Assembly: GCA_013152385.1 (NCBI GenBank)
Contig: JAADGL010000009.1
Span: 1-38,467, forward strand
Length of the DNA stretch: 38,467 bases
From: Acidobacteriota bacterium
GTDB taxonomy: Bacteria > Acidobacteriota > Holophagae > Thermotomaculales > Thermotomaculaceae
Direction of reading: 5' to 3'
Below, in pieces: positions 5,846 through 32,967 of this stretch; positions within the stretch are counted from its first letter, which is position 1; every line of letters starts with the position of its first letter. The translations under genes and the position numbers were made by a program. The notes under the pieces were generated by a model that did not search any database, was not told where the DNA came from, and saw only the letters and a list, made by a program, of their open reading frames with translations.

Positions 5846-7299
5846 AGGCGTCTGAGCTGTTGTCCGGCATAAATTACAATGCTTCGAGCCTTTCCCCTGA
5901 TGCCGAAATAAGCGGAATTGCCATTGATTCCAGAAAATGCAGGGAAGGCGACCTCTTTTTCGCCCGTAAAGGATACCGTGAAAACGGTGAAGACTATGTT
6001 CCGGATGCCATCCGGGCCGGGGCTGTGGGCGTGGTGGCGGAGCGCAATTTTTCCGGAGTGCCGGCGGTGTTTGTTGATGATGTCCGGGAGGCGCTGGCCC
6101 TTTCCGCTTTGAATTTTTACCGCCATCCGGACCGTTCGCTGGGGCTGATCGGAATCACCGGGACCAACGGCAAGACAACGACAGCATGGTTTCTCCGGCA
6201 TCTTCTTCAGCACAGCGGCGGGTGCGGGCTGTTGTCCACGGTTGAGAATTTTGACGGGAAGAATCGGACGGCTGCTGCGTTGACAACCCCGGAAGCACAT
6301 GAAGTCTGTGAAATGCTGTCAAGAATGATAAAAAACAATTGCAGCCGGGCGGTGATGGAAGTTTCCGCCCATGCCGTGAGTTTGAAACGAATTTTCGGAT
6401 TTCATTTTCAGGTGGGCGTTTTTACGAATCTGTCTCAGGATCATTTGGATTTTTACGGGAATATGGAAAGTTATTTTGAAGCGAAAAAGAAGTTTTTTGA
6501 AGCACTGCTGCCGGATGCCTGCGCCGTAATCAATATTGACGATCCGGCGGGAAAACGCCTCCTGGAGATTTTGAAATGCCGGGTGATTACAGTCAGTCCC
6601 GCCGGCGGAAACGCGGATGTACGGGTGATGGGCACCCGGTCCCGTGATGCCGGAATCATTGTCCTCCTTCATGCGGAAGGAAAAGAAAAGGAAGTGTTTG
6701 TGCCGTTTCCCGGCCTGCATAACGCCGCGAATCTTGCCTCCTCAGCCGGTGTTCTGCTGGCCCTGCAGATGGATCCGTTCAATTTCCTTTCTTTACTGGC
6801 TTCCATGCGTTTTGTTCCCGGACGTATGGAAGCCGTTCCTTCCGGTGACGGGGTTCGGTATCTCGTGGACTTTGCCCACACTCCGGACGGGCTGGAAAAA
6901 GTGCTGTCATCTCCGGATATTCATGAAACCGGCCGTGTGATCTGTGTGTTCGGCTGCGGTGGCGACCGGGACAGGGGGAAGCGTCCCCTGATGATGCGGG
7001 CGGTGTGTGAGCATGCCGACATTGTGATTGCAACGGCGGATAATCCCCGTACCGAGAGCCAGAAACAGATTTTCAGGGATATGGCGGAAGGGGAAACCGG
7101 AAGCTGCCGTGTTTTGTATATTGAAGATAGAAAAATAGCGGTTCGTACGGCAATTTCGGAAGCAAGAGCCGGAGATGTTGTGATTGTGGCGGGAAAGGGC
7201 CATGAAACGTATCAGCTGATTGGCAGCCGGAAGATACCTTACAGTGATGCCGCGGAACTCCGTATCGCTTTGAAGGAGGCCGGCCGTGCGGGTCAGTGA
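5842..7299 (+). CDS. murE: UDP-MurNAc-tripeptide synthetase MurE
   Basis: 485 residues. ATP-dependent ligase adding the third amino acid to UDP-MurNAc-L-Ala-D-Glu. It shows the P-loop GITGTNGKTTT (catalytic K111), the middle-domain TTPEAHEV and EVSAHA motifs, and the C-terminal D400-N-P-R403. DNPR is the signature of enzymes that select meso-diaminopimelate rather than lysine, so the peptidoglycan should be meso-DAP type. It overlaps ftsI by 4 nt and murF by 14 nt, so translation is coupled. AAGGAGG inside its 3' end serves murF. Confidence 0.96.
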   Translation: MKASELLSGINYNASSLSPDAEISGIAIDSRKCREGDLFFARKGYRENGEDYVPDAIRAGAVGVVAERNFSGVPAVFVDDVREALALSALNFYRHPDRSLGLIGITGTNGKTTTAWFLRHLLQHSGGCGLLSTVENFDGKNRTAAALTTPEAHEVCEMLSRMIKNNCSRAVMEVSAHAVSLKRIFGFHFQVGVFTNLSQDHLDFYGNMESYFEAKKKFFEALLPDACAVINIDDPAGKRLLEILKCRVITVSPAGGNADVRVMGTRSRDAGIIVLLHAEGKEKEVFVPFPGLHNAANLASSAGVLLALQMDPFNFLSLLASMRFVPGRMEAVPSGDGVRYLVDFAHTPDGLEKVLSSPDIHETGRVICVFGCGGDRDRGKRPLMMRAVCEHADIVIATADNPRTESQKQIFRDMAEGETGSCRVLYIEDRKIAVRTAISEARAGDVVIVAGKGHETYQLIGSRKIPYSDAAELRIALKEAGRAGQ

Positions 7300-8647
7300 A
7301 CTGGCAAAATGGAGCGGCAGATCCCCGGAAAACTTTCATGACTGTGAAATTTCCGGTTTTTGTGCCGACAGTCGGATAATTAAACCCGGTGAGGCCTTTG
7401 TTGCAATCCGAACTGCCAGGGCGGATGGGAATCGTTTCCTTTCGGATGCTGAAGGCAAAGGCGCAGTTGCATTTATTGCCTCCGCTTGTCCGGAGGAGAG
7501 GGCGGAGAGGTACAACAACCTTTTTCTTGTTAAGGATCCGGTTCATTTCCTTGGAGATGCGGCAGGAAGGCTTTTGATTGCCAGGGTGGAAACCCGGGTT
7601 GCAGTCACCGGAAGCGCAGGGAAAACCACCACAAAAGAATTGATTGCCAGGCTTTTGTCTGTTTCCGGGGAAACACTGGCGACAAAAGGAAATTATAACA
7701 ATACAATCGGTTTGCCGATGACGGTTCTGGAGCAGCTGGATCATCCGGTTATCTTTTTTGTCACGGAGATGGGAATGAGTTATCCGGGGGAAATCAGGCG
7801 TCTGGTCCAGATTGTTCGGCCCGATATCCGGGTATGGCTCAATGTACTTACCGCCCATATCGGAAATTTCCGGGGGATTGAGGAACTGAGGGATGCCAAA
7901 GCGGAAATTCTGTCCCGGCGCGGGGCGGAGGACATAATCATTTACAATCATGATGATTTACTGGTTAAATCGAGGGTGGAGCAGGAGGTGGGGCTGAAGT
8001 ATAGTTTCGGGGCAGGTATGGGAGCGGATTTCCGCATTGTTTCTTCCCGTGTGCTGAGCCTTGAATCCGCGGTTCTTGACGTGGAGTATGAGGGGCGCCT
8101 GCACCGTTTCCATCACCGTCTGCCGGGGCTGCATAACAGTTACAACATCGCTGCCGCAGTGCTGACCGCGTTGTCGGCCGGTGTGTCGCTGGAAGCCGTA
8201 CAGCAGGTGTTGCAGGACTTCCGTCCGGTTCGCCATCGGGGCAGGGTAATTCAGGCAGGGCCGGTTTCGATCTATGATGATTGCTACAATTCGAATCCGG
8301 CTGCCGTGAAACAGGTGCTGTCCATGTTTCGGGAGGTAGAACTTCCGGGGAGAAAGATTGTGGTGCTGGGAGATATGCTGGAACTTGGCGATTTCTCTGA
8401 AATGCGGCATCGGGAAATCGGTTTGATGTCTGCCGGCCTGAAGTTTGACGAAGTCGTGTTTTTCGGAAATAAAATGCGGGACGCTTTTGAAAGTTGTACG
8501 GCAACGTGCAGCTGGTTTGAAGATAACCGGGCTGCTGCGGAATATCTCAAAAAAAATGTGGTGCCGGGGGATGTGGTGTTGATAAAAGCATCCCGGGGTA
8601 TGCATGGCGAAGTAATTATTGAGCAGTTGAGGGAGCAGTTTGAATAA
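7286..8647 (+). CDS. murF: UDP-MurNAc-pentapeptide synthetase MurF
   Basis: 453 residues. It adds D-Ala-D-Ala to the UDP-MurNAc tripeptide. The P-loop VTGSAGKTTTKE (K113) and GNYNNTIGLP are diagnostic for MurF. EMGMSYPGEI and DDCYNSNP are further family motifs. The GTG start at 7286 is preceded by AAGGAGG at 7273-7279 with a 6-nt gap, which fixes it. In most clusters mraY follows murF; here the murF stop overlaps the next gene murD, so no mraY or remnant of it can lie between them. Confidence 0.95.
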   Translation: MRVSELAKWSGRSPENFHDCEISGFCADSRIIKPGEAFVAIRTARADGNRFLSDAEGKGAVAFIASACPEERAERYNNLFLVKDPVHFLGDAAGRLLIARVETRVAVTGSAGKTTTKELIARLLSVSGETLATKGNYNNTIGLPMTVLEQLDHPVIFFVTEMGMSYPGEIRRLVQIVRPDIRVWLNVLTAHIGNFRGIEELRDAKAEILSRRGAEDIIIYNHDDLLVKSRVEQEVGLKYSFGAGMGADFRIVSSRVLSLESAVLDVEYEGRLHRFHHRLPGLHNSYNIAAAVLTALSAGVSLEAVQQVLQDFRPVRHRGRVIQAGPVSIYDDCYNSNPAAVKQVLSMFREVELPGRKIVVLGDMLELGDFSEMRHREIGLMSAGLKFDEVVFFGNKMRDAFESCTATCSWFEDNRAAAEYLKKNVVPGDVVLIKASRGMHGEVIIEQLREQFE

Positions 8648-9983
8648 AATGGAAAAGATTCTGGTTGCGGGAATGGGCAAAAGCGGTGAATGGGCGGTGC
8701 GGCTGGCATTGAAAAACGGGATTTCGTGCCTGTTGTACGATGATCGGGATCTTTCCCTTCCCGGAGCATTGCCGGATGACATTGCCTGCGGCAAAGACGT
8801 AAAAATTGTGAAAAAGGTGGATAAATTGCTGCTGGAAACCGTGGGGCTGGTGGTTATCAGCCCGGGATTTGCACCGTCTCATCCGGTACGCAGCATTTCG
8901 GAAGAAGCGGAATGCGGCCTGGTATCGGAAATTGAATTCGCGGCGGCTTATTGCAGCGGAAGAATTTTTGCCGTTACCGGATCCAACGGGAAAACAACAG
9001 TGACGGGGCTTACCGCGCACATCCTCAAATCTTCGGGGGCAATGGCGGTTCCCTGCGGAAATTTCGGGACAGCTTTCTCGCAGGCGGTGTTGGAATCCGG
9101 AGGTGAAGGTGACTTTGTTGTGGAACTTTCGTCGTTTCAGCTGGAACATGTGCAGCACTTCAAACCTGATTTTGCCGCACTTTTAAATCTGACGCCGGAT
9201 CATCTGGATCGGTATTCGGAAGCAGATGAATACTACCGGGCTAAGATGGCGTTGTTTCGGAATATGGATGCCGGGACCCCGGCATTCCTCAACCGGGATG
9301 ACCCGGTCACAGAATCATACAGCCGCTACTTTCCTCCCAATGTTAAATGGATCGGAAAAACACCGGATTCCACTGTCCGGGTGACATCAGATGCGCTTTA
9401 TTACGGGGGGGAGAAATTGATCGAACTGAAAGAAACCCGTCTTCGGGGCCGTCATAACCTCTACAATGCCGCATTTTCAGCCGGAATGGCCCTTTTTGCC
9501 GGGATTTCCGCAGACAGGGTCCGGGAGGGCATTCTTTCTTTTCAGCCGATACCGCACCGGCTGGAGTTTGTGAATGAAAAAAACGGGGTTCGATTTTATA
9601 ACGACTCCAAAGCAACCAACTTCGATTCGGTGGTAAAAGCGTTGGGGAGTTTTCCCTCCATCCGCTGGATTGCCGGCGGACGGTTCAAAGGCGGAGATTT
9701 TGACGAATTGTTTGAAGCGGGGAAAGGCCGGGTGAAAGCCGCGTATTTTATCGGGGAAAGTGCCCCGCTGTTTCAAAAGAAACTCGAAAACCGCTTTAAC
9801 TGCCGGATTTCCACAACCCTGGAGCAGGCGGTGGCGGAAGCATGGCGGGACGCAGTTTCCGGTGACGTTATCCTGCTTGCGCCGGGGTGTTCAAGCTATG
9901 ATCAGTTTAAGAATTTTGAGGTCCGGGGAGACCGGTTCCGGGAGATTGTCAATGAAATCGGGAATGAAGGAAATTGCAGCTGA
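8640..9983 (+). CDS. murD: UDP-MurNAc-L-alanine:D-glutamate ligase MurD
   Basis: 447 residues from the TTG at 8640. An ATG three codons later (8649) is a possible alternative. GAGGGAG at 8629-8635 is 4 nt from the TTG and 13 nt from the ATG, so the choice is open. MurD adds D-glutamate to UDP-MurNAc-L-Ala. Seen: Rossmann-like GMGKSG at the N-terminus, P-loop AVTGSNGKTTVTGL (K118), ELSSFQLE, LTPDHLDR and the C-terminal NDSKATN motif, all typical. It overlaps murF by 8 nt and ftsW by 32 nt. Confidence 0.94.
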   Translation: MNKMEKILVAGMGKSGEWAVRLALKNGISCLLYDDRDLSLPGALPDDIACGKDVKIVKKVDKLLLETVGLVVISPGFAPSHPVRSISEEAECGLVSEIEFAAAYCSGRIFAVTGSNGKTTVTGLTAHILKSSGAMAVPCGNFGTAFSQAVLESGGEGDFVVELSSFQLEHVQHFKPDFAALLNLTPDHLDRYSEADEYYRAKMALFRNMDAGTPAFLNRDDPVTESYSRYFPPNVKWIGKTPDSTVRVTSDALYYGGEKLIELKETRLRGRHNLYNAAFSAGMALFAGISADRVREGILSFQPIPHRLEFVNEKNGVRFYNDSKATNFDSVVKALGSFPSIRWIAGGRFKGGDFDELFEAGKGRVKAAYFIGESAPLFQKKLENRFNCRISTTLEQAVAEAWRDAVSGDVILLAPGCSSYDQFKNFEVRGDRFREIVNEIGNEGNCS

Positions 9984-11070
9984 AAAAAAAGGATTTATGA
10001 TCACAGTGGTAATGCTGGTGGTGTTCGGCATTGTGATCACCATGTCAGCTTCCATATCTGTCAAGATTCACAATGGCGTGGATATTACGACAAAAATCTT
10101 TGCCAATGTTGTTATTTCCATCCTGATAATGGCACTGGTGATGTGGAAAGCACCCATTGAGCGATGGAAGAATCAGGGAATGCTTTATCTCGCAGTGGCT
10201 GTTACATTGATCCTGCTGCTACTTCCGATTCTGTTGAATATCCGTATTAATGGGGCCTACCGCTGGATTTCACTTGGTATTTTCAGCCTGCAGCCGGCTG
10301 AACTGGCAAAGGTGGTGGTCGTTGCCTATTTGGCGTATATTTTTTCCACGATGAAACACCCCCGGCCTACCATGGATGAACTGATTCCCATTGGTGTAGT
10401 CACCGGGGTAATTGTGCTCTGTATTTTTCTGGAGCGGGATCTCGGAATTCCCCTCGTGATTGCCGTTACAGTATTGGCAATGCTTTTTGTTACCCGTACC
10501 AACCGTTTGGTTGTGGTGGGGCTTATGGTTTTGGGGCTTCTTATTTTTGCCGTCGCGGTGATGACGGCACAGCACCGGCGCAGCCGGGTAATTCAGTTCT
10601 GGGACAGGAAAACCGGGGTGACCGCCCTGTCATTTGATAAAATACCTGATGATCAGATTGGTGCCGCGCTGCTGGCGGTGAGTTCGGCGGGGTTAAAGGG
10701 CAAGGGGCTGGGGAACAGCGAAACAAAGTTCAGTTCTCTCACCGAAGCGCATAACGATTTTGTTTTTTCGCTGATTATTGAGGAGTTGGGGCTGGCTGGT
10801 TTTGCCATAGTTGCATTGCTCTTTACACTGTTCATGATTTTTGGCCTGCGGATGGCATTTACCGCCCAGGGCCGGTTTGAACACTACTTTCTTATCGGCA
10901 TGGTTTTCCTTACCGTCAGTCAGGCGGTGCTGCATATGATGGTAAACGTGGACATGCTGCCGGCGAAGGGATTCGGACTGCCGTTTATCAGTTACGGCGG
11001 GTCTTCCATGGTTTCTCACATGATGATGGTGGGTCTTGCGCTGACTGTAAAACTGAAAGGGGAAGAATAG
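9952..11070 (+). CDS. ftsW: Septal peptidoglycan polymerase FtsW
   Basis: 372 residues. SEDS-family glycosyltransferase that polymerises lipid II at the septum with FtsI. It is strongly hydrophobic with about ten membrane segments and has family motifs near NGAYRWISLG, QPAELAK, EAHNDFVFSLIIEELG and the C-terminal GFGLPFISYGGSSM. The ATG at 9952 lies within the murD 3' end and follows GGGAG by 7 nt; an internal ATG at 9964 is possible. A longer open frame back to 9760 is antisense-like overlap with murD and is ignored. murG, which usually follows ftsW, is absent. Confidence 0.95.
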   Translation: MKSGMKEIAAEKKGFMITVVMLVVFGIVITMSASISVKIHNGVDITTKIFANVVISILIMALVMWKAPIERWKNQGMLYLAVAVTLILLLLPILLNIRINGAYRWISLGIFSLQPAELAKVVVVAYLAYIFSTMKHPRPTMDELIPIGVVTGVIVLCIFLERDLGIPLVIAVTVLAMLFVTRTNRLVVVGLMVLGLLIFAVAVMTAQHRRSRVIQFWDRKTGVTALSFDKIPDDQIGAALLAVSSAGLKGKGLGNSETKFSSLTEAHNDFVFSLIIEELGLAGFAIVALLFTLFMIFGLRMAFTAQGRFEHYFLIGMVFLTVSQAVLHMMVNVDMLPAKGFGLPFISYGGSSMVSHMMMVGLALTVKLKGEE

Positions 11071-11072
11071 GG

Positions 11073-11183
11073 ATGATAGGATTGAGTTTAACTTTAAGTA
11101 AAGGCATAAAGCTGCGGAATTCTGTAATTTTTCCGGTATCCGGCTGTAACGGCTGTTCATTTCCCGGACCGGGGGGGGACTGA
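11073..11183 (+). CDS. Candidate 36-residue small protein
   Basis: An ATG two nucleotides after the ftsW stop opens 36 codons that end with TGA directly before the murC ATG, in the same frame as murC. AAGGGG at 11057-11062 sits 10 nt before it. The peptide starts MIGLSLTLSKGIKLRN and has two cysteines (CNGC) and a Pro/Gly-rich end. I do not recognise it, and it does not look like the start or end of MurG. A G8 run near its 3' end (11171-11178) also serves as the murC ribosome-binding region. It may be a leader peptide, a remnant or simply untranslated spacer. Confidence 0.3.
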   Translation: MIGLSLTLSKGIKLRNSVIFPVSGCNGCSFPGPGGD

Positions 11184-12560
11184 ATGTTCGGACGGTTTAA
11201 AACGATACATTTTGTCGGTATCGGCGGAACGGGAATGAGTGGAATTGCCGAAGTGCTTCACAACCTCGGTTTTAGCGTAACAGGTTCGGATTTGAATCAA
11301 AGTGACTATACAAAGCGGCTGGAATCCCTTGGAATCAAAATCAGTTATATCCATGATGCCGCAAATGTGGCGGATGCCGATGCGGTGGTGGTTTCCACCG
11401 CCATCAGGCGGGAAAACCCCGAATGGCAGGCAGCGGAGATCCGGAATATCCCGGTGATTCCCCGGGGTGAAATGCTGGCGGAGCTGATGCGGATGAAAGC
11501 GGGAATCGCGATTTCCGGTACCCACGGGAAAACCACTACAACTTCAATTGCCGCTTCGGTTCTTTCGCAGGGGGGGCTGGATCCCACCGTTATTATCGGA
11601 GGGATTTTTGCGGCCTATGGTTCCAATGCCAGGCTGGGCAGTTCCGAATACCTGGTGGCCGAAGCGGACGAATCGGACGGCTCGTTTCTGCGGTTGAGTC
11701 CCATTTACAGTATTATCACAAACATTGATGAAGACCATATGAACTATTACAAAACAATGGATAATCTGAAGGACAGTTTTGTTGAATTCGCTAACAAAGT
11801 GCCGTTTTTCGGAGCAACGATTGTCTGCCTTGAAGACAGCCGTATCAAGTCCATTATTCCGGACATCAGACGCAGGGTGATCAGTTACGGCTTTTCCGCA
11901 CATTGCGATTACCAGGGAGTGGATATCCGTGTTACTGGCAAAGGATATGAATTCGGGGTTCGGGAAAACGGAGAGAAGCTCGGGAACTTTATTCTGAAAG
12001 TACCGGGGCGCCACAATATTCTCAATACGCTTTCGGTTATTGCCCTTGCCAGAGAGATGGAGTTAAGTAAAGAAGATATTTACAAGGGGGTTGCGGCCTA
12101 TACGGGAACCAAACGCAGGTCCGAGACAGTGGGATGGTACCGGGGGTGCAGGGTAATTTCCGATTATGCCCACCACCCGGTTGAAATTGAAAAAACCCTG
12201 GGGGCGCTGCGGGAATTCTACCGTCCCGGGCGCATTATCTGTATCTTTCAACCCCACCGATACAGCCGGACAAAAAACCAGTTCGAAAATTTTCATTTTT
12301 CGTTTCATCAGTCGGATGTTCTGAATCTTCTGCCCATTTATCCGGCCGGGGAAACACCTATTGAAGGAATTTCCAGCGAAGCTCTGGTGAACGGGATTCG
12401 CAAGGCGGGCCACCGGGATGTCAACCTGATTGAAAACAGTGGGATGCTCCCGGAAACGTTACGGGGCATTGTTCGGGACGGAGATCTTGTGGTTTTTCTC
12501 GGGGCCGGTACAATTGACCTTCTGGCAAGACAGTTTGGGAAGGAGGAATGTGAAAAGTGA
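11184..12560 (+). CDS. murC: UDP-MurNAc:L-alanine ligase MurC
   Basis: 458 residues. First amino-acid ligase of peptidoglycan precursor synthesis, joining L-alanine to UDP-MurNAc. Seen: N-terminal VGIGGTGMSGIAEVL, the P-loop AISGTHGKTTTTS (K116), EADESDGSF, and C-terminal FQPHRYSRT, all characteristic of MurC. Length is normal and there is no MurB or Ddl fusion. A G-rich stretch ending 5 nt upstream is the ribosome-binding region. Its stop overlaps the ftsQ GTG (GTGA). Confidence 0.96.
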   Translation: MFGRFKTIHFVGIGGTGMSGIAEVLHNLGFSVTGSDLNQSDYTKRLESLGIKISYIHDAANVADADAVVVSTAIRRENPEWQAAEIRNIPVIPRGEMLAELMRMKAGIAISGTHGKTTTTSIAASVLSQGGLDPTVIIGGIFAAYGSNARLGSSEYLVAEADESDGSFLRLSPIYSIITNIDEDHMNYYKTMDNLKDSFVEFANKVPFFGATIVCLEDSRIKSIIPDIRRRVISYGFSAHCDYQGVDIRVTGKGYEFGVRENGEKLGNFILKVPGRHNILNTLSVIALAREMELSKEDIYKGVAAYTGTKRRSETVGWYRGCRVISDYAHHPVEIEKTLGALREFYRPGRIICIFQPHRYSRTKNQFENFHFSFHQSDVLNLLPIYPAGETPIEGISSEALVNGIRKAGHRDVNLIENSGMLPETLRGIVRDGDLVVFLGAGTIDLLARQFGKEECEK

Positions 12561-13330
12561 CCCGTAAAAGCCCTGCGACTATCCGGGTGAAAATGCGTTT
12601 TAACCGTTTTCTCAGAAAATATGGGGGGCGAATCGGCTTTTATTTTGCCGGGGTGGTAGTGCTTGTCATTTTAGCTGCCTGGATTTTCCCGCCGTTGAAA
12701 TACTATTTTACCGATATTTTCAAAGTACGGGAGTTTCGGATTCTGAACGTGTATTACAATAATCCTGCGGAATTGCAGCAGGCGCTGGCCCCCTTTCTCG
12801 GCCGTTCCTACTGGGACTTAGACAAGAAAGCCGTAAAAAAGACAGTGGAAGCGGTTCCCTGGGTGGATCATGCCAGTGTTCGGGCCCTTCCCGGCAGCCG
12901 GGTAACGGTAGTGGTTACGGAAAAACAACCGGTGGCGTTGTTTCGGACAAAAAAAGGGGACATCTGGATTGTGGATGGCAAAGGCAGCAGGATTGCCCCT
13001 TTTACTCCGGATTTTTCCTACCGAAATTTTCCTCTCATTGATTGTGACAGAAAGAAACTTCCCTTCGTTGTTCACAAACTTGAAAAGATGAAAACAGTGG
13101 ATAACGGCATTTTTTTCAATCGCTTATCTGAGCTTGTGGTATTGAAAAATAATGAAAAGTGGGAATGTTTTCTCCGGGATATTCCGTGGAAAATTTATGT
13201 AGACCCCTTTGGTTCCTTTAAAAATGTGAGACAATTTTTAAAGGTGGAGAAATTTATCAAATCACGGTATGATAATGTTGAATATATTGATTTATCATTT
13301 CGGCATGAAATTGTGGTAAAACCAGAATAA
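12557..13330 (+). CDS. ftsQ: Cell division protein FtsQ/DivIB
   Basis: 257 residues. It has a cytoplasmic arginine-rich N-terminus, one membrane helix at about residues 26-47, then a POTRA domain (FKVREFRILNVYYNN onward) and a beta domain with the EKQPVALFR motif typical of FtsQ. FtsQ bridges early and late divisome proteins with FtsL and FtsB. The GTG at 12557 overlaps the murC stop, with AGGAGG 10 nt upstream. Sequence similarity in this family is weak; topology plus position before ftsA and ftsZ make the call firm. Confidence 0.9.
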   Translation: MTRKSPATIRVKMRFNRFLRKYGGRIGFYFAGVVVLVILAAWIFPPLKYYFTDIFKVREFRILNVYYNNPAELQQALAPFLGRSYWDLDKKAVKKTVEAVPWVDHASVRALPGSRVTVVVTEKQPVALFRTKKGDIWIVDGKGSRIAPFTPDFSYRNFPLIDCDRKKLPFVVHKLEKMKTVDNGIFFNRLSELVVLKNNEKWECFLRDIPWKIYVDPFGSFKNVRQFLKVEKFIKSRYDNVEYIDLSFRHEIVVKPE

Positions 13331-13340
13331 GGAGTTGTGA

Positions 13341-14603
13341 ATGGCAGGCCGTAACACCATTGTGGCAGTAGATTTGGGATCCAGTGAAATCAAAGCATTG
13401 GTATGCGGGTTTGACGAAGATAATGCCAGAATAACCGTTCGGGGTTATCATAAGGGAGAATCCCTCTATATTGATGAAAAGGGCCGGATCACCGATGTCA
13501 ATTCCCTGGCACTCAGTCTCGGAACCGTCATTCACGAAGCCTGCAATATTGCCGGTGTTTCCAGCCCCTGTGTGGTCTGTGGATTGCCGATTACCGACAT
13601 CAATCAATACCACTCCACCGGCCCCATCTCCATTCCCCCTGAAAAAGGCGCCCCGGGCCAGGTAAAAAGAGAACACATCCGCCAGGCGATTGAAACCGCT
13701 CAGAATATCCGCTATCCCGGTGACCATGAAATCATTGACATCCTGGTGGAGGACTACATTATAGACAATAGCAAACGGGTGCAGAATCCCCTGGATATGC
13801 CGGGAAGCCGTCTTGACGTCAATCTGCTTATCTGTTCGGCGCCATCCTCCTCCATTATGGTAGTGCGGAAATGTATTGAAAAAGCAGGATTCTTCTGCGA
13901 AGACATCTTTCTGAATCCCATTGCTGCGGGAACAGTTGCGGTTTCCAGTTATGCCAGGGAAAAAGGTTGTGTCCACATTGATATGGGTGCTTCTCTGACT
14001 ACCTTTTCAGTGTATCAGAAAGGTTCCATCATTTATATGGGCTCGGTGCCGGAGGGTGGAAAGTTTGTAACCTCCGATTTACTGGCGGCTTATCGGGTTC
14101 CCAGCAGTTATAATACATTGAGTGCCGTGGACATGTTGAAAAAACGCTACAACAAATTGAAAATTGACAAAGCAAACGAGGAGATTGTTCTTCAAAGCGT
14201 CTCCGGACAGGCGGAAGCTTCACTGACACGGGAGCAGTTTGTTACCGTAATGGTGGACCGTCTTGATGAAATCTTCGAAGAGGTTGACAACGACATCAAA
14301 AAAAACAGGCTGTTGGAAGAGGTAGATGAGGTCATTCTCTCCGGTGGAACCGCACGTTTTGCCGGAATTACCGAGCTTTGTCGGAAACGATTTGGAAAAC
14401 CCGTCAGTGTTGCCACCCCCTGGGTTACCGGGGATGACATGATGGCGGAAATTAACGTACCTGAATTTGTGACCGCCTACGGGCTGGCAAATTATTATTA
14501 TCTTGGAGACGAACGATCCAAAGCTTTCCGTTCCTATGAAAACGAGGGCGGTACGCTGCGGAACGTTATCCGGGATATTTTTGGAAAATTCAAAAGGGGA
14601 TAA
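13341..14603 (+). CDS. ftsA: Cell division protein FtsA
   Basis: 420 residues. Actin-like ATPase that tethers FtsZ filaments to the membrane. N-terminal phosphate-binding motif VAVDLGSSEIKALV, an inserted SHS2/1C region, a second phosphate motif VHIDMGASLTTFSV and the adenosine motif VILSGGTARFAGI are present. The last residues (LRNVIRDIFGKFKRG) form the amphipathic membrane-targeting helix. AAGGAG precedes the ATG. The gene directly precedes ftsZ, two nucleotides apart. Confidence 0.96.
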   Translation: MAGRNTIVAVDLGSSEIKALVCGFDEDNARITVRGYHKGESLYIDEKGRITDVNSLALSLGTVIHEACNIAGVSSPCVVCGLPITDINQYHSTGPISIPPEKGAPGQVKREHIRQAIETAQNIRYPGDHEIIDILVEDYIIDNSKRVQNPLDMPGSRLDVNLLICSAPSSSIMVVRKCIEKAGFFCEDIFLNPIAAGTVAVSSYAREKGCVHIDMGASLTTFSVYQKGSIIYMGSVPEGGKFVTSDLLAAYRVPSSYNTLSAVDMLKKRYNKLKIDKANEEIVLQSVSGQAEASLTREQFVTVMVDRLDEIFEEVDNDIKKNRLLEEVDEVILSGGTARFAGITELCRKRFGKPVSVATPWVTGDDMMAEINVPEFVTAYGLANYYYLGDERSKAFRSYENEGGTLRNVIRDIFGKFKRG

Positions 14604-14605
14604 AA

Positions 14606-15922
14606 ATGTCAATTAGAGACAGCGCCATTCTGATTGAAGAAAACAAAATGGCACGGCCCATCATCAAAGTGTTTGGTGTGGGTGGTGCGGGATGCAATGC
14701 CGTTAATCGTATGATTGAGTCCAATCTTAAACACGTGGAATTTATCGCGGTCAATACGGACCTGCAGTCCCTGATCCATTCCCACGCTCCCATGAAAATT
14801 CAAATCGGAGAGCGTTTGACCGAAGGACTCGGAGCCGGTTCCGACCCCAAAATGGGGGAACGTTCCGCCATCGAAGATATGGACAAACTCCGCTCCGCCA
14901 TTGAGGGGGCACACATGGTATTTATCACAGCGGGCCTTGGCGGCGGAACAGGGACGGGCGCGGCCCCTGTTATCGCACGCATTGCCAGTGAAATGGGGAT
15001 TCTTACCGTGGCAATCGTTACCCAGCCTTTTGAATTTGAGAAAAATGTCCGTTTCCGCAATTTTGTTGAGGGCTACAGCCAGCTGATAGATCACGTGGAC
15101 TCCATGATCACCATTAAAAATGATAAAATCTTTGACATTCTGCCTGATGATACTCCGTGGAGGATGGCTTACGAAGAAATTGACACCATTTTGAAAAACG
15201 CGCTTCGGGGTATCGTAGATATCGTTTTTGTCACCGGTACCGAAAACGTTGATTTTGCCGACATGCGGACCATATTCGGTTACAAAGGCTTTGCGCTCAT
15301 GGGCTTGGGAGAGGCTGCCGGTGAAGACCGGGCCCGGGAAGCGCTGACTGCGGCTCTGCAATCTCCCCTGCTGGATAATTTTTCTCTTATGGAATCCCGG
15401 GGAGTTATTGTCAACGTTACCGCAGGTACCGGCGAACACCAGCTTACCGTAGGAGAAAACCGTTACCTTCTTCAAACTCTGAACAACGAACTGGGGGAAC
15501 ACGTCCACATGATTAAAGGCACGGTGGAAGAGGAAAGTATCGGGGATAAACTCCGGGTTACGCTTATTGCCACCGGGTTTGATTATGGAAAGATTCAGGG
15601 ACAGGGCCCCCTTGACATTAAACGTGCCCGGACCATGCGGGAGGCTTATCTGGAGAAACGGCCGTCCACCGGCGGAGTGCCTGAAATTACGTCCGACGAT
15701 TTGGAGCCTACAAAACAAATCGAAAGCAAACCGGTTGAAAACGTGTGCGGCGAACATCCCTGCTCGCAAATAGCTACGGAGCTTCTGCAGACGGATGAGT
15801 ACAAAGAGCTCCGCCGGAGTCCTTCCGTTGCCGGTATGGATTCCGGGGATATGGACAAGGTGAGGAAAATTCCCGCATTTCTCAGAAAAGCGATTCAAAC
15901 GGGAAATCTGAACAAAAAGTGA
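14606..15922 (+). CDS. ftsZ: Cell division GTPase FtsZ
   Basis: 438 residues. Tubulin homologue forming the Z ring. It contains the tubulin signature GGGTGTGAAPV, FGVGGAGCNAVNRM, and the T7 loop NVDFADMRTIF needed for GTP hydrolysis. A variable linker (about residues 345-420) ends in the conserved C-terminal peptide KIPAFLRKA, which binds FtsA. AAGGGGA lies 5 nt before the ATG; a 14-residue N-terminal extension precedes the conserved core. It is the last gene of the cluster and two overlapping inverted repeats follow its stop. Confidence 0.97.
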   Translation: MSIRDSAILIEENKMARPIIKVFGVGGAGCNAVNRMIESNLKHVEFIAVNTDLQSLIHSHAPMKIQIGERLTEGLGAGSDPKMGERSAIEDMDKLRSAIEGAHMVFITAGLGGGTGTGAAPVIARIASEMGILTVAIVTQPFEFEKNVRFRNFVEGYSQLIDHVDSMITIKNDKIFDILPDDTPWRMAYEEIDTILKNALRGIVDIVFVTGTENVDFADMRTIFGYKGFALMGLGEAAGEDRAREALTAALQSPLLDNFSLMESRGVIVNVTAGTGEHQLTVGENRYLLQTLNNELGEHVHMIKGTVEEESIGDKLRVTLIATGFDYGKIQGQGPLDIKRARTMREAYLEKRPSTGGVPEITSDDLEPTKQIESKPVENVCGEHPCSQIATELLQTDEYKELRRSPSVAGMDSGDMDKVRKIPAFLRKAIQTGNLNKK

Positions 15923-27490: not shown

Positions 27491-29218
27491 ATGACGGACC
27501 GTCGGTGGACAAAATTTTATGAAGACATATCCAAAACACTGAAATATCCCCGAAAATCCCTCTATGAAGTAGTGATGGATACGGTGGAGAAGATGCCGGA
27601 CGCGGTGGCAACGGATTTTTTCGGTGCCGAAATGACTTATCGGCAGCTTGGGGCCTATATTGACAAAACGGCGGATATGCTGGCCGCGCTGGGCTTTCGC
27701 GCCGGTGATCGGATTACAATTTCCATGCCTACTTCTCCCCAGGGGGTGGCGGCTGTATATGCCGCCAACAAGCTGGGAGGAGTTGCGTCTCTGATTCATC
27801 CTCTTTCCCCCGCGGCGGAGGTTCACGGTTATCTTGCCATGAGCAAAAGTCGTTTCGCGCTGACGCTGGATGCTTTTTACCCGGTTTTTGAGGAAGCAAG
27901 GGGTGAAACTGCCCTTGAAACCCTGATTCTGACCCGGATTTCGGATGAAATGCCGCGTTTAACCCGGTTGGGATTTAAGCTGACAGCAGGCAGGAAGATT
28001 AAAAAGGTTCCGGCGGATGCCGATGCTGTCTGGTGGCATGAAGCGATTGCAGGCGAAAATCCGAAATCCGAAAAAGCTGATGTAAAAGCCGATGACCTTG
28101 CGGCAATTCTGTATTCCGGCGGTACCACCGGTTCCCCGAAAGGCATTATGCTGTCCAATTACAATCTGGTCAGTGAAGGGATGATGGTGGCAAAGTGGGG
28201 GAAAATGGATAGCGGCGGGGTAATTCTCGCGATTTTGCCGATTTTTCACGGTTTCGGGCTTGGGGTTTGTATCAACGCGGCTTTTATGGGCGGTGCAAAG
28301 TCTATTCTGGTTCCGAAGTTTACCCCGGAGGATGTGGCAAAACTGATTCGGAAAAAACGGCCGAATTTTCTTGTGGGCGTTCCCACTCTGTTTGAGGCAC
28401 TGAGCCGGAATCCGGTGTTTCAGAAGACGGACTTGTCCTGTTTAAAAGCAGTGTTCTCCGGCGCTGACACCCTGCCCCGGCCGGTGAAAGAACGCTTTGA
28501 CACTGTGGTGAAAGCGGGCGGCGGCACAGCTGAACTGCAGGAGGGTTACGGGCTGACGGAAGCGGTAACTGCGATTATGGCAATGCCGCTTTCCGAGTAC
28601 CGGGAAGGGAGTATCGGGATTCCGTTTCCGGACATGGACGCGAAAATTGTTAAACCGGGTACAACCGAGGCACAGCCTGCCGGAGAGGAAGGGGAAATCT
28701 GCCTTTCCGGCCCGGCTGTGATGCTGGGGTATCTGGACAATCCGAAAGAAACTGCGGCAATGCTGAAACAGCATGAAGACGGGAATGTCTGGCTTCATAC
28801 CGGAGACTTGGGATTGATGGACGAAGACGGTTTTTTCTATTTCAGACAACGGCTCAAACGAATGATTAAATCCTCCGGCATGAATGTGTATCCCTCTCAG
28901 GTGGAAGCGGTTTTGCTTCAGCATCCGGCTGTGGCGGAAGCCTGCGTGATCGGAATACCGGATCGGGAACAGGTGGAGCGGGTAAAGGCGTTTGTTGTGC
29001 CGGAAAATCCGGAGACCGCCGGGCCGGAAATGGCAGCGGAGCTGATTCGCCACTGCCGGAAAAACCTCATTAAGTGGAGTTGCCCCCGCGAAGTGGCATT
29101 TCGGGACAGTCTCCCGAAAACCGCCGTGGGGAAGGTGGCGTTCCGTGTGCTGATGGAAGAGGAGATTGAACGGATGAAAGCTGCCGGCGGGTATGCCGGA
29201 ACGGAGGATAAACCGTGA
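27491..29218 (+). CDS. AMP-forming acyl-CoA synthetase
   Basis: 575 residues. Activates a carboxylic acid to its CoA thioester via an acyl adenylate. Signature motifs: LYSGGTTGSPKGIM (about 207-220), the QEGYGLTEAV region, TGDLGLMDEDGFFYF (D439 binds ribose), and the C-terminal catalytic lysine K548 in PKTAVGKVAFR. It belongs to the long-chain/4-coumarate-CoA ligase branch; substrate is not predictable from motifs. GGGAGG is 5 nt before the ATG. Its stop overlaps the dehydratase subunit gene as GTGA, so its product is probably the dehydratase's CoA-ester substrate or a precursor of it. Confidence 0.9.
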   Translation: MTDRRWTKFYEDISKTLKYPRKSLYEVVMDTVEKMPDAVATDFFGAEMTYRQLGAYIDKTADMLAALGFRAGDRITISMPTSPQGVAAVYAANKLGGVASLIHPLSPAAEVHGYLAMSKSRFALTLDAFYPVFEEARGETALETLILTRISDEMPRLTRLGFKLTAGRKIKKVPADADAVWWHEAIAGENPKSEKADVKADDLAAILYSGGTTGSPKGIMLSNYNLVSEGMMVAKWGKMDSGGVILAILPIFHGFGLGVCINAAFMGGAKSILVPKFTPEDVAKLIRKKRPNFLVGVPTLFEALSRNPVFQKTDLSCLKAVFSGADTLPRPVKERFDTVVKAGGGTAELQEGYGLTEAVTAIMAMPLSEYREGSIGIPFPDMDAKIVKPGTTEAQPAGEEGEICLSGPAVMLGYLDNPKETAAMLKQHEDGNVWLHTGDLGLMDEDGFFYFRQRLKRMIKSSGMNVYPSQVEAVLLQHPAVAEACVIGIPDREQVERVKAFVVPENPETAGPEMAAELIRHCRKNLIKWSCPREVAFRDSLPKTAVGKVAFRVLMEEEIERMKAAGGYAGTEDKP

Positions 29219-30366
29219 ACAGCACCGAAATCATTGAGAAGTTCCGTACGGCGGCCCGGGACCCTTTTCATTGCGTCCGGAGCTTGAAAAAGGAGAAACA
29301 TTGTCCGGTTGTGGGCTATACCTGCACGTACTTTCCGGAAGAAATCGTACTGGCTGCCGAAGCGCACCCCCTGCGCCTCTTCGGGGAATCCGGTATGGTG
29401 CTGAAAGCGGATGCCCATATTCAGGCCTACGGCTGTTCCCTGGCCCGTTCGGTGTTTGAAGATGCTTTGTCCGGGCAATTGGATTTCCTGGATGTAATGG
29501 CGTTTCCCCACAGCTGCGATACAATGCAGCGTCTGTCCGATATCTGGCGCCTTAACATTAAAAACACGGTCCATCTTGACCTGCTTTTTCCGGTACACCT
29601 GAAAAGTGAAGCGGCAGGGGATTATCTGAAAGCTGTGCTGGAACGGTTCAAAAAAGAACTGGAACAGGCATTGCAGACGGAAATATCCGGTTCCGCCCTC
29701 TCCGGGGCCATTTCCCTGACAAACCGCATCCGTTCCGCTCTCCATTCCCTCTACAGAATCCGGGCAGCGGCACCGGAACGGATTTCCGGCAGCGACTTAA
29801 ACCGGGTTGTCCGTGGATGTATGATTCTGGATCGTTCAACCGCTGCCGATTTACTGGAAACACTGGCAGATGAACTGGGAAGTGTGAATTTCCCGGCGGG
29901 AAAACAGCCGGTAAAACGATTGCTTTTAAGCGGCGGGGCCTGCCTGCACCCGGACATTCACGATATTATTGAACAACAGGGAGGCGCGGTGGTATGGGAC
30001 GATCTTTGCACCGGAAACCGCTATTTTGACACCCCTGTTCCTGATGGGCCAAGCCCCGTTTCCGCCATTGCAGAACGGTTTCTGGACAGAGCTGTCTGCC
30101 CCGCCAAGCACAGCGGCATTGACCGCCGGGGAAAAGAACTGTCGGAACTTGTATCAAAATACGAGATTAACGGTGTTATTTTCCTGCTTCTGAAATTCTG
30201 TGACCCCCACGGTTTTGATTATCCCGATTTGAAAGCCACACTTGAAGAAGCCGGTGTCCCCAGCCTGTTCCTGGAAGTGGAAAGCGGAAAACCGGTGGAC
30301 GGCCCGACCCGTACACGGGTGGAAACCTTCCTTCAAATCCTGAATCAGCAGGAGCCAATGACATGA
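29215..30366 (+). CDS. 2-hydroxyacyl-CoA dehydratase, subunit 1
   Basis: 383 residues, GTG start overlapping the ligase stop. Member of the HgdB/FldC/BcrB family, which builds one half of an iron-sulfur enzyme that removes water from 2-hydroxyacyl-CoA by a ketyl-radical route, or, in benzoyl-CoA reductases, reduces an aromatic ring. Seen: GYTCTYFPEEIVLAA near the start, YGCSLARS, FPHSCDTMQRL, and KFCDPHGFDYP near the end. C37, C74, C101 and C329 are candidate [4Fe-4S] ligands; which bind is not settled. The sequence ends four nt into the next gene. It could equally be the reductase type, since only the family fold is clear. Confidence 0.85.
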   Translation: MNSTEIIEKFRTAARDPFHCVRSLKKEKHCPVVGYTCTYFPEEIVLAAEAHPLRLFGESGMVLKADAHIQAYGCSLARSVFEDALSGQLDFLDVMAFPHSCDTMQRLSDIWRLNIKNTVHLDLLFPVHLKSEAAGDYLKAVLERFKKELEQALQTEISGSALSGAISLTNRIRSALHSLYRIRAAAPERISGSDLNRVVRGCMILDRSTAADLLETLADELGSVNFPAGKQPVKRLLLSGGACLHPDIHDIIEQQGGAVVWDDLCTGNRYFDTPVPDGPSPVSAIAERFLDRAVCPAKHSGIDRRGKELSELVSKYEINGVIFLLLKFCDPHGFDYPDLKATLEEAGVPSLFLEVESGKPVDGPTRTRVETFLQILNQQEPMT

Positions 30367-31592
30367 GCAAAAAAGACTTCAAGAAATCCGCCGCTTACAT
30401 GGAATCCGTGCCGAAGATGAAGAAAATTATGCGGAATTACTATCTGAAGGCAAAATACGCCCGGTATCTCGGCAGGAAAGTTGCCTGGATTACCAGCGGC
30501 GGCCCGGTGGAACCCCTCATTGCCATGGGCATTATTCCGGTGTACCCGGAAAACCACGGTGCCATGATCGGGGTTTCCCGCACCGGAGTAAAACTCTGTG
30601 AGGTGGCGGAAGGGATGGGGTATTCCACCGATCTCTGTTCCTACGCCCGGGCGGACATCGGCTGCTCGGCTGCCGGGGGTGGCCCCATCGGCGGCCTGCC
30701 GAAGCCGGACATGCTGATTTGCTGCAACAATATCTGCGGCACAGTGCTGAAATGGTATGAAATTCAGGCCCGGAAGTTTCGGGTGCCACTTTTTATTTTC
30801 GATACCCCCTTTGTTCACACCGAATTCACGAAGGAAGCCAAAACTTATGTGGACCGGCAGGTGGAAGACTACATCCGTTTCCTTGAAACTGTCATGAAAA
30901 AGAAATTCCCCCGCGACAAAATGAACGTGGTGGGAAAACGCTCGGTGGAAGCCATGCGGCTCTGGCAGCAGGTACTGGACACCGCCACGGCAAAACCCGC
31001 TCCCCTCACCGCTTTTGACGCGTTTTTTCATCTCGCCCTTATCGTTACCCTCCGGGGCACCCGGACGGTTCTCCGCTACTACCGCTTTCTGCTGGACGAG
31101 CTGAACCGGCGGGTGGAAAACGGCATCGGCATGGTAAAAACCGAACAGTACCGCTTTCTCTGGGACAACCTCCCCATCTGGCACCGGATGCGCTGGCTTT
31201 CCAGAACCTTTGCCGCCCGGAATGCGGCGCTGGTCGCCGATACCTACACATCCGCATGGTGCGGCACGGTGGACCACATTGACGAAAACGATTTCCTCGG
31301 GTCCATGGGTGAAGCCTACACCCGTATCTACCTCAATATCGGCGTGGACAAGATGGCGGAAAAAGTGCTGAACATGATTGACAAATATGAGGTGGACGGC
31401 CTTGTTATGCATTCCAACAGAAGCTGCAAACCCTATTCCTTCGGGCAATACGACATCCGGAGAATCGTTCAGGAGAAACGGGGCCTGCCGGTACTGATTC
31501 TGGAATCCGACATGGTGGATGCGCGGAAATTCAGTGAAGCCCAGGCGGAAACCCGCATTGACGCTTTCATGGAAATGGTGGGGCAGAAATGA
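30363..31592 (+). CDS. 2-hydroxyacyl-CoA dehydratase, subunit 2
   Basis: 409 residues, HgdA/FldB-like partner of the preceding subunit. It shows the family's PVEPLIAMGIIPVYPENH start, then C92 in TDLCSYAR, CC-NNIC (C120, C121, C125) followed by WYE, VDGLVMHSNRSCKPYSFGQYD with a further cysteine, and VLILESDMVDARKFSEAQAETRIDAF, the strongly conserved C-terminal block. Both halves together form the catalytic heterodimer with [4Fe-4S] clusters. ATGA overlaps join it to the genes on either side. No ferredoxin or further subunits follow, which fits the dehydratase type better than four-subunit BcrABCD reductases. Confidence 0.87.
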   Translation: MSKKDFKKSAAYMESVPKMKKIMRNYYLKAKYARYLGRKVAWITSGGPVEPLIAMGIIPVYPENHGAMIGVSRTGVKLCEVAEGMGYSTDLCSYARADIGCSAAGGGPIGGLPKPDMLICCNNICGTVLKWYEIQARKFRVPLFIFDTPFVHTEFTKEAKTYVDRQVEDYIRFLETVMKKKFPRDKMNVVGKRSVEAMRLWQQVLDTATAKPAPLTAFDAFFHLALIVTLRGTRTVLRYYRFLLDELNRRVENGIGMVKTEQYRFLWDNLPIWHRMRWLSRTFAARNAALVADTYTSAWCGTVDHIDENDFLGSMGEAYTRIYLNIGVDKMAEKVLNMIDKYEVDGLVMHSNRSCKPYSFGQYDIRRIVQEKRGLPVLILESDMVDARKFSEAQAETRIDAFMEMVGQK

Positions 31593-32359
31593 TCTGCTGC
31601 GGCATTGACATCGGTTCCGTCACTGCCAAAGGGGTGCTTCTGGAAGAATCGAAGCAGATTGCCGGCGCCATCCGGTTCACCGGCTACAATGCCGGAAACG
31701 CGGCGGAAACCATTCTTCAATCTCTACTGGAACAGGCGGGGCTGAAACAGGAGCAGGTGGACGCCATTGTCGCCACCGGCTACGGACGGAACAGCGTGAA
31801 TTTCGCGGACAAAGCCCTGTCTGAAATTATCTGCCACGCCGCAGGTGCCCACTTCGCCGTTCCCGCCGCCCGTACCGTCATTGACATCGGCGGGCAGGAC
31901 AGCAAAATAATCCGTCTCAAAGAAAACGGGCAGGTAACAGACTTTGTCATGAACGACAAATGTGCCGCCGGAACCGGGCGGTTCCTTGAAGTCATGGCCC
32001 GGGCACTGGGAACCGACCTGGACGGCTTCGGGCAGCTTTCCCTGAAAAGCCGCACCCCCGCCGCCATCAGCTCCACCTGTACCGTGTTTGCGGAATCCGA
32101 AGTTATCTCACTGGTGGCAAAGGGCGAAAAACGGGAAAACATTATTGCCGGCATCCACGCCTCCATTGCCGCCCGCACCGTTGCGCTGGCCAACAGAGTC
32201 GGTGTTGTCCCCGCTGTCGCCATGACAGGGGGTGTTTCCCGGAACATCGGAGTTGTCCGGGCCCTTGAAAAACACCTGAATCTTCCGGTCATCATCCCGG
32301 AAAACGCCCAGCTTACCGGCGCTGTCGGTGCCGCTTTGCTTGCACAAAAAGGGAAATAG
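31589..32359 (+). CDS. Dehydratase activator ATPase (HgdC-like)
   Basis: 256 residues, matching homodimeric activators such as HgdC/FldI. This ASKHA-fold protein bridges one [4Fe-4S] cluster between two subunits and uses ATP to inject the starting electron into the dehydratase. Seen: phosphate-binding CGIDIGSVTAKGVLL, TGYGRNSV, VIDIGGQDSKIIRL, the cluster cysteines C125 (MNDKCAAGTGRF) and C164 (SSTCTVFAESEVIS), and the adenosine motif AMTGGVSRN. Its presence means the enzyme is oxygen sensitive and needs a low-potential donor. It is the last gene of the four-gene cassette, overlapping subunit 2 by ATGA. Confidence 0.93.
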   Translation: MICCGIDIGSVTAKGVLLEESKQIAGAIRFTGYNAGNAAETILQSLLEQAGLKQEQVDAIVATGYGRNSVNFADKALSEIICHAAGAHFAVPAARTVIDIGGQDSKIIRLKENGQVTDFVMNDKCAAGTGRFLEVMARALGTDLDGFGQLSLKSRTPAAISSTCTVFAESEVISLVAKGEKRENIIAGIHASIAARTVALANRVGVVPAVAMTGGVSRNIGVVRALEKHLNLPVIIPENAQLTGAVGAALLAQKGK

Positions 32360-32421: not shown

Positions 32422-32475
32422 TGTGATACCCTTGTTGGACTTTAACCGGCCGGAATGCCGGAATTGGAGGATATT

Positions 32476-32910
32476 GTGACATCTGTTAAAGCAGGAGATA
32501 CGGTTCGGGTTCATTACACCGGAACCCTGGACAATGGAGAAGTGTTTGATTCATCAAGAGACCGGGATCCCCTTGAATTCAAGGTTGGCGGCGGAATGGT
32601 CATTCCCGGTTTTGACAAAGCCGTACTGGGACTGAAAGCGGGAGACTCCACCTCTGTGAAACTGCCTCCGGAAGAAGCTTATGGTGAAATCCGCAAAGAA
32701 CTGATTATGCCCATGCAGAAAAGCCAGGTTCCGGAAGACATTGTTCCGGAAGTGGGAATGCAGGTCATGCTCCAGGCTCAGAACGGGCAGCAGGTCCCGG
32801 CAACCATCACGGAAATAAATGAAAACACGATAATTCTGGATGCGAATGCGCCTCTCGCGGGGAAAACACTGAACTTCGATATCGAAGTGGTGGAAATTGT
32901 CCGGGACTGA
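32476..32910 (+). CDS. SlyD-like FKBP-type peptidyl-prolyl isomerase
   Basis: 144 residues from the GTG at 32476, which has GGAGG 5 nt upstream; an in-frame ATG at 32455 lacks such a site. FKBP core with VHYTGTLDNGEVFDSS, PLEFKVGGGMVIPGFDKAVLGLKAG, then an inserted flap (IF) region of about 60 residues (ELIMPMQKSQVPEDI onward), and the closing NFDIEVVEI strand. This order is that of SlyD/FkpB-type cytoplasmic foldases. The histidine/cysteine-rich metal tail of E. coli SlyD is missing. It catalyses cis/trans isomerisation of proline bonds and acts as a chaperone. A strong terminator follows. Confidence 0.9.
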   Translation: MTSVKAGDTVRVHYTGTLDNGEVFDSSRDRDPLEFKVGGGMVIPGFDKAVLGLKAGDSTSVKLPPEEAYGEIRKELIMPMQKSQVPEDIVPEVGMQVMLQAQNGQQVPATITEINENTIILDANAPLAGKTLNFDIEVVEIVRD

Positions 32911-32931
32911 TAATAATTAAAACACCATACG

Positions 32932-32967
32932 GGGATTCCGGGAGTATGCCCCGGAATCCCTTTTTTT
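32932..32967 (+). terminator. Rho-independent terminator
   Basis: GGGATTCCGGG (32932-32942) and CCCGGAATCCC (32950-32960) form an 11-bp stem with loop AGTATGC, followed by T7 (32961-32967). It ends the FKBP gene and lies only a few nt past the stop of the converging DUF4019 gene, which it may also terminate. Confidence 0.9.

Follow-up and report, generated by a model that had tools for sequence, protein, structure and literature searches.

A widespread acyl-CoA ligase and activase cassette pairing a dehydratase-type catalytic subunit with a partner that carries the ligand set of a double-cubane cluster

Introduction

What reaction is catalyzed by a two-subunit radical enzyme that is encoded together with its own ATPase activator and an ATP-dependent acyl-CoA ligase? 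The question is raised by positions 27491–32359 of contig JAADGL010000009.1 (assembly GCA_013152385.1) from an Acidobacteriota bacterium of the Thermotomaculaceae, which was analyzed over its full length of 38,467 nucleotides (the window, one entire contig of a 2.57 Mb genome that is 99% complete). The paired HGD-D subunits, termed B (catalytic) and C (electron transfer), and a BcrAD_BadFG ATPase activator (activase) place this four-gene cassette in the BCR/HAD superfamily of radical enzymes, which includes the benzoyl-CoA reductases (BCR) and the 2-hydroxyacyl-CoA dehydratases (HAD).

The HADs eliminate water from (R)-2-hydroxyacyl-CoA by a radical reaction (reviewed in PMC11574389). A single recycled electron is sufficient for the characterized dehydratases, in which the double cubane has been lost, while a store for at least two electrons meets the need of a reductase (PMC11971306). 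In the current evolutionary picture the dehydratases arose by losing both double cubanes, and BzdNO is the first enzyme with a double cubane for which a catabolic role has been defined; the [8Fe-9S] cluster of its BzdN subunit is ligated by Cys36, Cys73, Cys100, Cys263, Cys293 and Cys327 within a shell formed by Arg53, Arg267, Arg290 and His330 (PMC11971306). Herein it is reported that the cassette combines a dehydratase-type catalytic subunit with a partner that retains this complete ligand set, a combination that was found described nowhere in the open-licence literature searched, where a single paper mentions double cubanes together with these dehydratases and none connects them with a ligase cassette. 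The reading given preference, with a probability of about 0.52, is a subfamily of ATP-primed (R)-2-hydroxyacyl-CoA dehydratases that have a double-cubane electron store and feed beta-oxidation.

Results

All four genes are on the + strand, with a stop/start overlap of 4 nt (GTGA or ATGA) at each of the three junctions. They encode an AMP-forming, FadD/4CL-like acyl-CoA ligase (27491–29218, 575 amino acids), subunit C (29215–30366, 383 amino acids), the HadB-like subunit B (30363–31592, 409 amino acids) and a homodimer-type activase (31589–32359, 256 amino acids). The corresponding Pfam matches (AMP-binding plus AMP-binding_C, HGD-D, HGD-D and BcrAD_BadFG) are all well over cut-off and, together with the open reading frame coordinates, they confirm the self-contained ligase, dehydratase and activase cassette proposed in the initial annotation.

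Judged by its residues, the active site of subunit B is of the 2-hydroxyacyl-CoA dehydratase type. S45 and E63 correspond to Ser37 and Glu55 of HadB and are accompanied by Y94, and the cysteines of the subunit are the three [4Fe-4S] ligands only (C92, C125 and C355). As expected of a HAD catalytic subunit, these three cysteines, S45 and E63 are present in 82 of 82 subunit B homologues, in which WITSGGP and YPEN are also invariant. These five residues, like the YPEN, NNIC and NRSCK motifs, are shared with HadB and with relatives from Proteus and Fusobacterium, and the active-site motif is carried by HadBC-like relatives while the benzoyl-CoA reductase-type subunits are without it. The active-site residues His131, Trp46 and Leu302 of BzdO are replaced in all 82 homologues by V128, G47 and W299. 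G47 also takes the place of HadB Phe39 throughout, and an invariant glycine at this position suggests a roomier pocket. Subunit B matches HGD-D at 9.5e-77 and the HadB model at 302 bits, and its predicted structure is closest to HadB (PDB 3o3m), with 33–34% identity.

Subunit C, by its residues, is BzdN-like. Alignment with BzdN shows counterparts of all six [8Fe-9S] ligands, namely C37 (equivalent to Cys36; codon 29323–29325, + strand), C74 (29434–29436), C101 (29515–29517), C265 (30007–30009), C295 (30097–30099) and C329 (30199–30201), and of the surrounding shell (R54, R269, R292 and H332). Each of the 64 full-length subunit C family proteins has the six Cys and three Arg, which are invariant across phyla even though overall identity is 41–50%, while one truncated member has Cys at all five of the ligand positions that it covers. 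At the position of BzdN His330 there is His in 59 of the 64 and Phe in five, all from Bacteroidales. The second subunit of a HAD is reduced to a single-cubane site, whereas every full-length member here retains the six Cys. We infer from the conserved ligands that subunit C holds an [8Fe-9S] double cubane. The six-Cys set was not found in the aligned HadC and MbdN or in the C proteins of a ligase-less operon from a sister genus, nor in plasmid-borne relatives or in the pairs resembling HadBC from Proteus and Fusobacterium. Those six-Cys proteins of the same bacteria that fall outside the family resemble DCCP or BzdN. The designation of both proteins as dehydratase subunits in the initial annotation is therefore correct only in part. 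In whole-protein comparisons, subunit C matches HGD-D at 2.6e-82 and BzdN at 169.8 bits, versus 163.3 bits for HadC. Its predicted fold (pLDDT 89) resembles BzdN and HadC about equally, and the best PDB match by E-value is BzdN chain 8s02_B. Within the genus, subunit C evolves much faster than subunit B (70–75% versus 90–93% identity).

The reference enzymes used for comparison were HadBC, BzdNO, MbdON, DCCP and the plasmid relatives. The closest relatives of the subunits with solved structures are ~27–34% identical and neither subunit reaches an NCBIfam equivalog cut-off; the cassette stands apart from all structurally solved enzymes. Like HadBC/HadI (PDB 3o3m), the cassette has two HGD-D subunits and one homodimer-type activase, and the serine, glutamate and three cysteines of subunit B are shared. 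However, HadC is missing two double-cubane Cys from the set of six and all but one of the four Arg/His residues in the shell, the CoA-transferase HadA takes the place of the ligase, and the HadBC equivalog cut-offs (NF052455/NF052456) are missed by a wide interval (302 versus 750 and 205 versus 700 bits). Subunit C shares all six cluster ligands and the Arg/His shell with the class I benzoyl-CoA reductase BzdNO (PDB 8s02), but subunit B has none of the three BzdO residues, scores fall below the TIGR03190/TIGR03191 cut-offs, and the one activase gene counted within the cassette may be a further difference from the two-subunit activator of the BZD type. The six-Cys pattern and an ATP-driven activase partner are shared with DCCP (PDB 6eno, 7yyl), at 24–25% identity. 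Each chain of the DCCP homodimer holds its own double cubane, whereas the cassette encodes two different subunits, only one of which has the six-Cys set. Finally, the sister-genus operon (L022–L025) has the order C-B-activase and a subunit B that is 39–41% identical, but it lacks a ligase and its C protein has three of the six Cys, the layout of an ordinary dehydratase. In sequence terms, the cassette is thus a BCR/HAD subfamily that is neither a strict HAD, a BZD-type reductase nor a DCCP, although a six-Cys partner may also occur among FldBC, HgdAB and LcdAB. In the tree of subunit C, the host genus groups with Bacteroidales (SH-aLRT 99); the position among solved references is weakly supported, with long branches, and the classification leans on residues instead.

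The ligase belongs to the AMP-forming (ANL) acyl-CoA ligases, with both AMP-binding domains (Pfam AMP-binding 8e-80) and with an SGGTTG ATP-binding loop and a C-terminal catalytic lysine, K548, that are invariant in 22 homologues. Its nearest solved structures are 4-coumarate-CoA ligase and FadD, and the best NCBIfam model, PRK05605, is matched at 429 bits, under its cut-off of 766. It forms its own subfamily, with 55–67% identity to ligases adjoining the same enzyme in other phyla. The activase passes the TIGR00241 cut-off (298.6 versus 125.4 bits) and carries the ATP motif GIDIGS, with C125 and C164 as its cluster cysteines. As in HADs, a single gene thus encodes a homodimer-type activase that has a pair of cluster Cys.

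Among 61 genomes of the class, close orthologues of the cassette were found in all four species of the host genus and in no other. The order ligase-C-B-activase is kept in two of these genomes (G002 and G003), while in a third (G001) the ligase, C and the start of B are present and the contig ends inside B. A wider scan, in which each of 84,980 species was represented by one genome, gave 564 relatives of subunit B, of which the best 80 were kept, and the idea of an oddity specific to the window was rejected. These best 80 of 564 are mainly from Desulfobacterota and from metagenome-assembled genomes named Deltaproteobacteria (Syntrophaceae, Smithella, Desulfosarcina), with others from Bacteroidales, Spirochaetes and SAR324, and they are 63–70% identical to subunit B, two near relatives excepted. 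Where at least 2.2 kb was available on both sides (42 loci), a ligase of the same family was present in 21 and an activase in 29. The usual order is again ligase-C-B-activase, with C-B-ligase and a divergent ligase as variants, and across 27 loci the distances for the ligase, C and B are correlated with one another (Mantel r 0.84–0.90, with none of 2000 permutations as high). Given an order shared across the genus and dozens of distant loci, together with this co-divergence, the arrangement is not due to chance and the four genes form an old unit, a conserved one in many anaerobes where an isolated oddity had been supposed.

The initial annotation also considered charging by a ligase to be unusual. 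In the cassette's own family, however, a ligase is the common charging enzyme, and it is swapped in relatives for another ligase or a CoA-transferase. The ligase was therefore rejected as the special feature of the cassette, and whether a ligase or a transferase is present says little about the chemistry. Other genes vary as well. A FabG-like short-chain dehydrogenase/reductase (SDR) lies between B and the activase in some loci and an SBF/BASS-type organic-anion symporter in others, a FadR-like TetR regulator is often divergent, and Mem_trans transporters are also among the neighbors. Beyond the four genes, no neighbor conserved family-wide was found. In six loci a LarA-like protein, of the nickel-pincer 2-hydroxyacid racemase family, is encoded divergently beside C of a C-B-SDR arrangement. 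No family ligase was seen in these six, and five have a CoA-transferase of the butyryl-CoA:acetate type. In another locus (L062), a Pfam-confirmed thiolase and a putative 3-hydroxyacyl-CoA dehydrogenase, assigned by its N-terminus, come before C-B-activase, which is joined by a ligase of a second type. The LarA-like and L062 contexts point to 2-hydroxy acids and beta-oxidation. Since the LarA-like loci are nested inside the family, the chemistry should be common to it, while the substrate may differ.

Several further arrangements were seen among the relatives. Three loci with C-B-ligase (L082, L092 and L110) continue with an IclR regulator and a conserved protein of 771–793 amino acids; this protein has a hydrophobic stretch at its N-terminus and matches BNR/fn3 weakly. 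In three deltaproteobacterial loci (L035, L042 and L059), a DJ-1/PfpI-like protein is encoded directly upstream of B, at the expected place of subunit C. L139 (G069 C62) and L131 (G069 C102) encode a further HGD-D pair that has the six Cys but a different active-site motif, PTENY or PTENF; in L139 it adjoins a ligase 60% identical to that of the window. This is a sibling cassette whose chemistry is probably different. Plasmids of the aerobes or denitrifiers Azoarcus KH32C, Rhodococcus ruber and Sphingopyxis (L114, L116 and L117) carry HGD-D pairs with a distinct subunit B motif, HGEA, accompanied by an activase and an SDR as well as AMP-binding or CaiB/BaiF genes. On a Rhizobium leguminosarum plasmid (L118), an HGD-D pair occurs together with two activase genes and one for a bile acid:sodium symporter.

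Host genome content was probed family by family. Beside the cassette there is no ferredoxin, Etf or acyl-CoA dehydrogenase, as had been pointed out. Among the families probed there were 10 acyl-CoA dehydrogenase-family, four enoyl-CoA hydratase-family and three thiolase-domain matches, all of them elsewhere in the genome. No second HGD-D pair or protein and no LarA gene were found in the host genome.

Discussion

In the preferred reading, the ligase would charge a carboxylic acid (acid + ATP + CoA → acyl-CoA), and the activase, driven by ATP, would deliver an electron of low potential to subunit C. There it would be stored on the [8Fe-9S] double cubane before being passed to the subunit B [4Fe-4S] cluster, and acyl-CoA bound to subunit B would undergo a one-electron radical reaction. 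The most likely net step would be the removal of water from (R)-2-hydroxyacyl-CoA to give 2-enoyl-CoA, followed by beta-oxidation in the host. Dehydration is favored because of the active-site residues and the gene context in relatives. Four points weigh against a dehydratase of this kind. The double-cubane assignment is based on ligand conservation. A capacity for holding two or more electrons suits a reductase, whereas the dehydratases characterized so far have no double cubane left and get by with one electron that is recycled. The neighborhoods with LarA or beta-oxidation genes are those of relatives and not of the host genus, whose representative here has no LarA. In addition, with G47 in place of Phe39 or Trp46, the pocket of subunit B differs from that of HadBC.

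The double cubane would serve a two-electron reduction equally well, and the main rival is a reductase of acyl-CoA or aryl-CoA that depends on ATP and is BZD-like with another substrate. In it, the double cubane would collect the electrons delivered by the activase, and subunit B would reduce a CoA-activated acid. Aryl-CoA reductases are also supplied by ATP-dependent CoA ligases, subunit C has the full residue set of BzdN, itself a reductase subunit, and in L139 the six-Cys pair, whose active site is different, adjoins a ligase of the same family (60% identical). A reductase is nevertheless less likely, given the dehydratase-type first shell of subunit B (equivalents of Ser37 and Glu55, YPEN, and neither His131 nor Trp46), the 2-hydroxyacid racemase-like gene in six relatives, and a cassette that holds one activase gene and not two. 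A related proposal, of much the same probability, is a new BCR/HAD functional class, ATP-dependent, widespread in sulfate reducers and syntrophs and hitherto unrecognized, in which a dehydratase-type radical site and a multi-electron double-cubane store would reduce or reductively dehydroxylate a non-aromatic acyl-CoA.

It is improbable that the enzyme is an ordinary HadBC-like dehydratase whose extra Cys are ancestral leftovers with no second cubane. While overall subunit scores are equally near HadBC and BzdNO, the six Cys and three Arg are kept without exception across phyla at 41–50% identity, and the three-Cys operon of the sister genus is without them. More improbable still is a biosynthetic or lipid-modifying step in place of beta-oxidation entry, for although the lack of a family-wide neighbor leaves the pathway unfixed by context, the exchangeable CoA-charging enzymes, SBF and Mem_trans transporters, TetR/FadR-like regulator and beta-oxidation neighbors look catabolic.

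A widespread family with a dehydratase-type site and a double cubane would be either an intermediate in the evolutionary history outlined above or a reductase with a new substrate, and in either case the four genes offer a simple test bed for the purpose of double cubanes. The cassette is present in sequenced Desulfosarcina, with a ligase in D. alkanivorans and with no neighboring ligase in D. widdelii, and it could account for the way anaerobes get rid of acids whose fate is left open in current annotation.

Flanking Genes

An FKBP-type peptidyl-prolyl isomerase is encoded 95 nt downstream of the cassette (32455–32910, + strand) and is followed by a strong intrinsic-terminator-like hairpin with a T tract (32931–32961, + strand; 12-bp stem, eight G-C pairs), identified by consensus match only. 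The FKBP gene may be co-transcribed with the cassette. FKBP matches were absent from the cassette loci of the other species compared, and the FKBP, YtfJ and DUF4019 neighbors were rejected as cassette parts as they are not kept beside it in other genomes. An apparent neighbor cluster (F4) was discarded since it consists of reverse-strand open reading frames overlying subunit B. A sigma-70 promoter scan was uninformative (four matches versus 4.6 expected). Further upstream, window positions 3947–15922 hold a dcw-type cell-division and peptidoglycan cluster, with a transpeptidase, four Mur ligases, FtsA and FtsZ.

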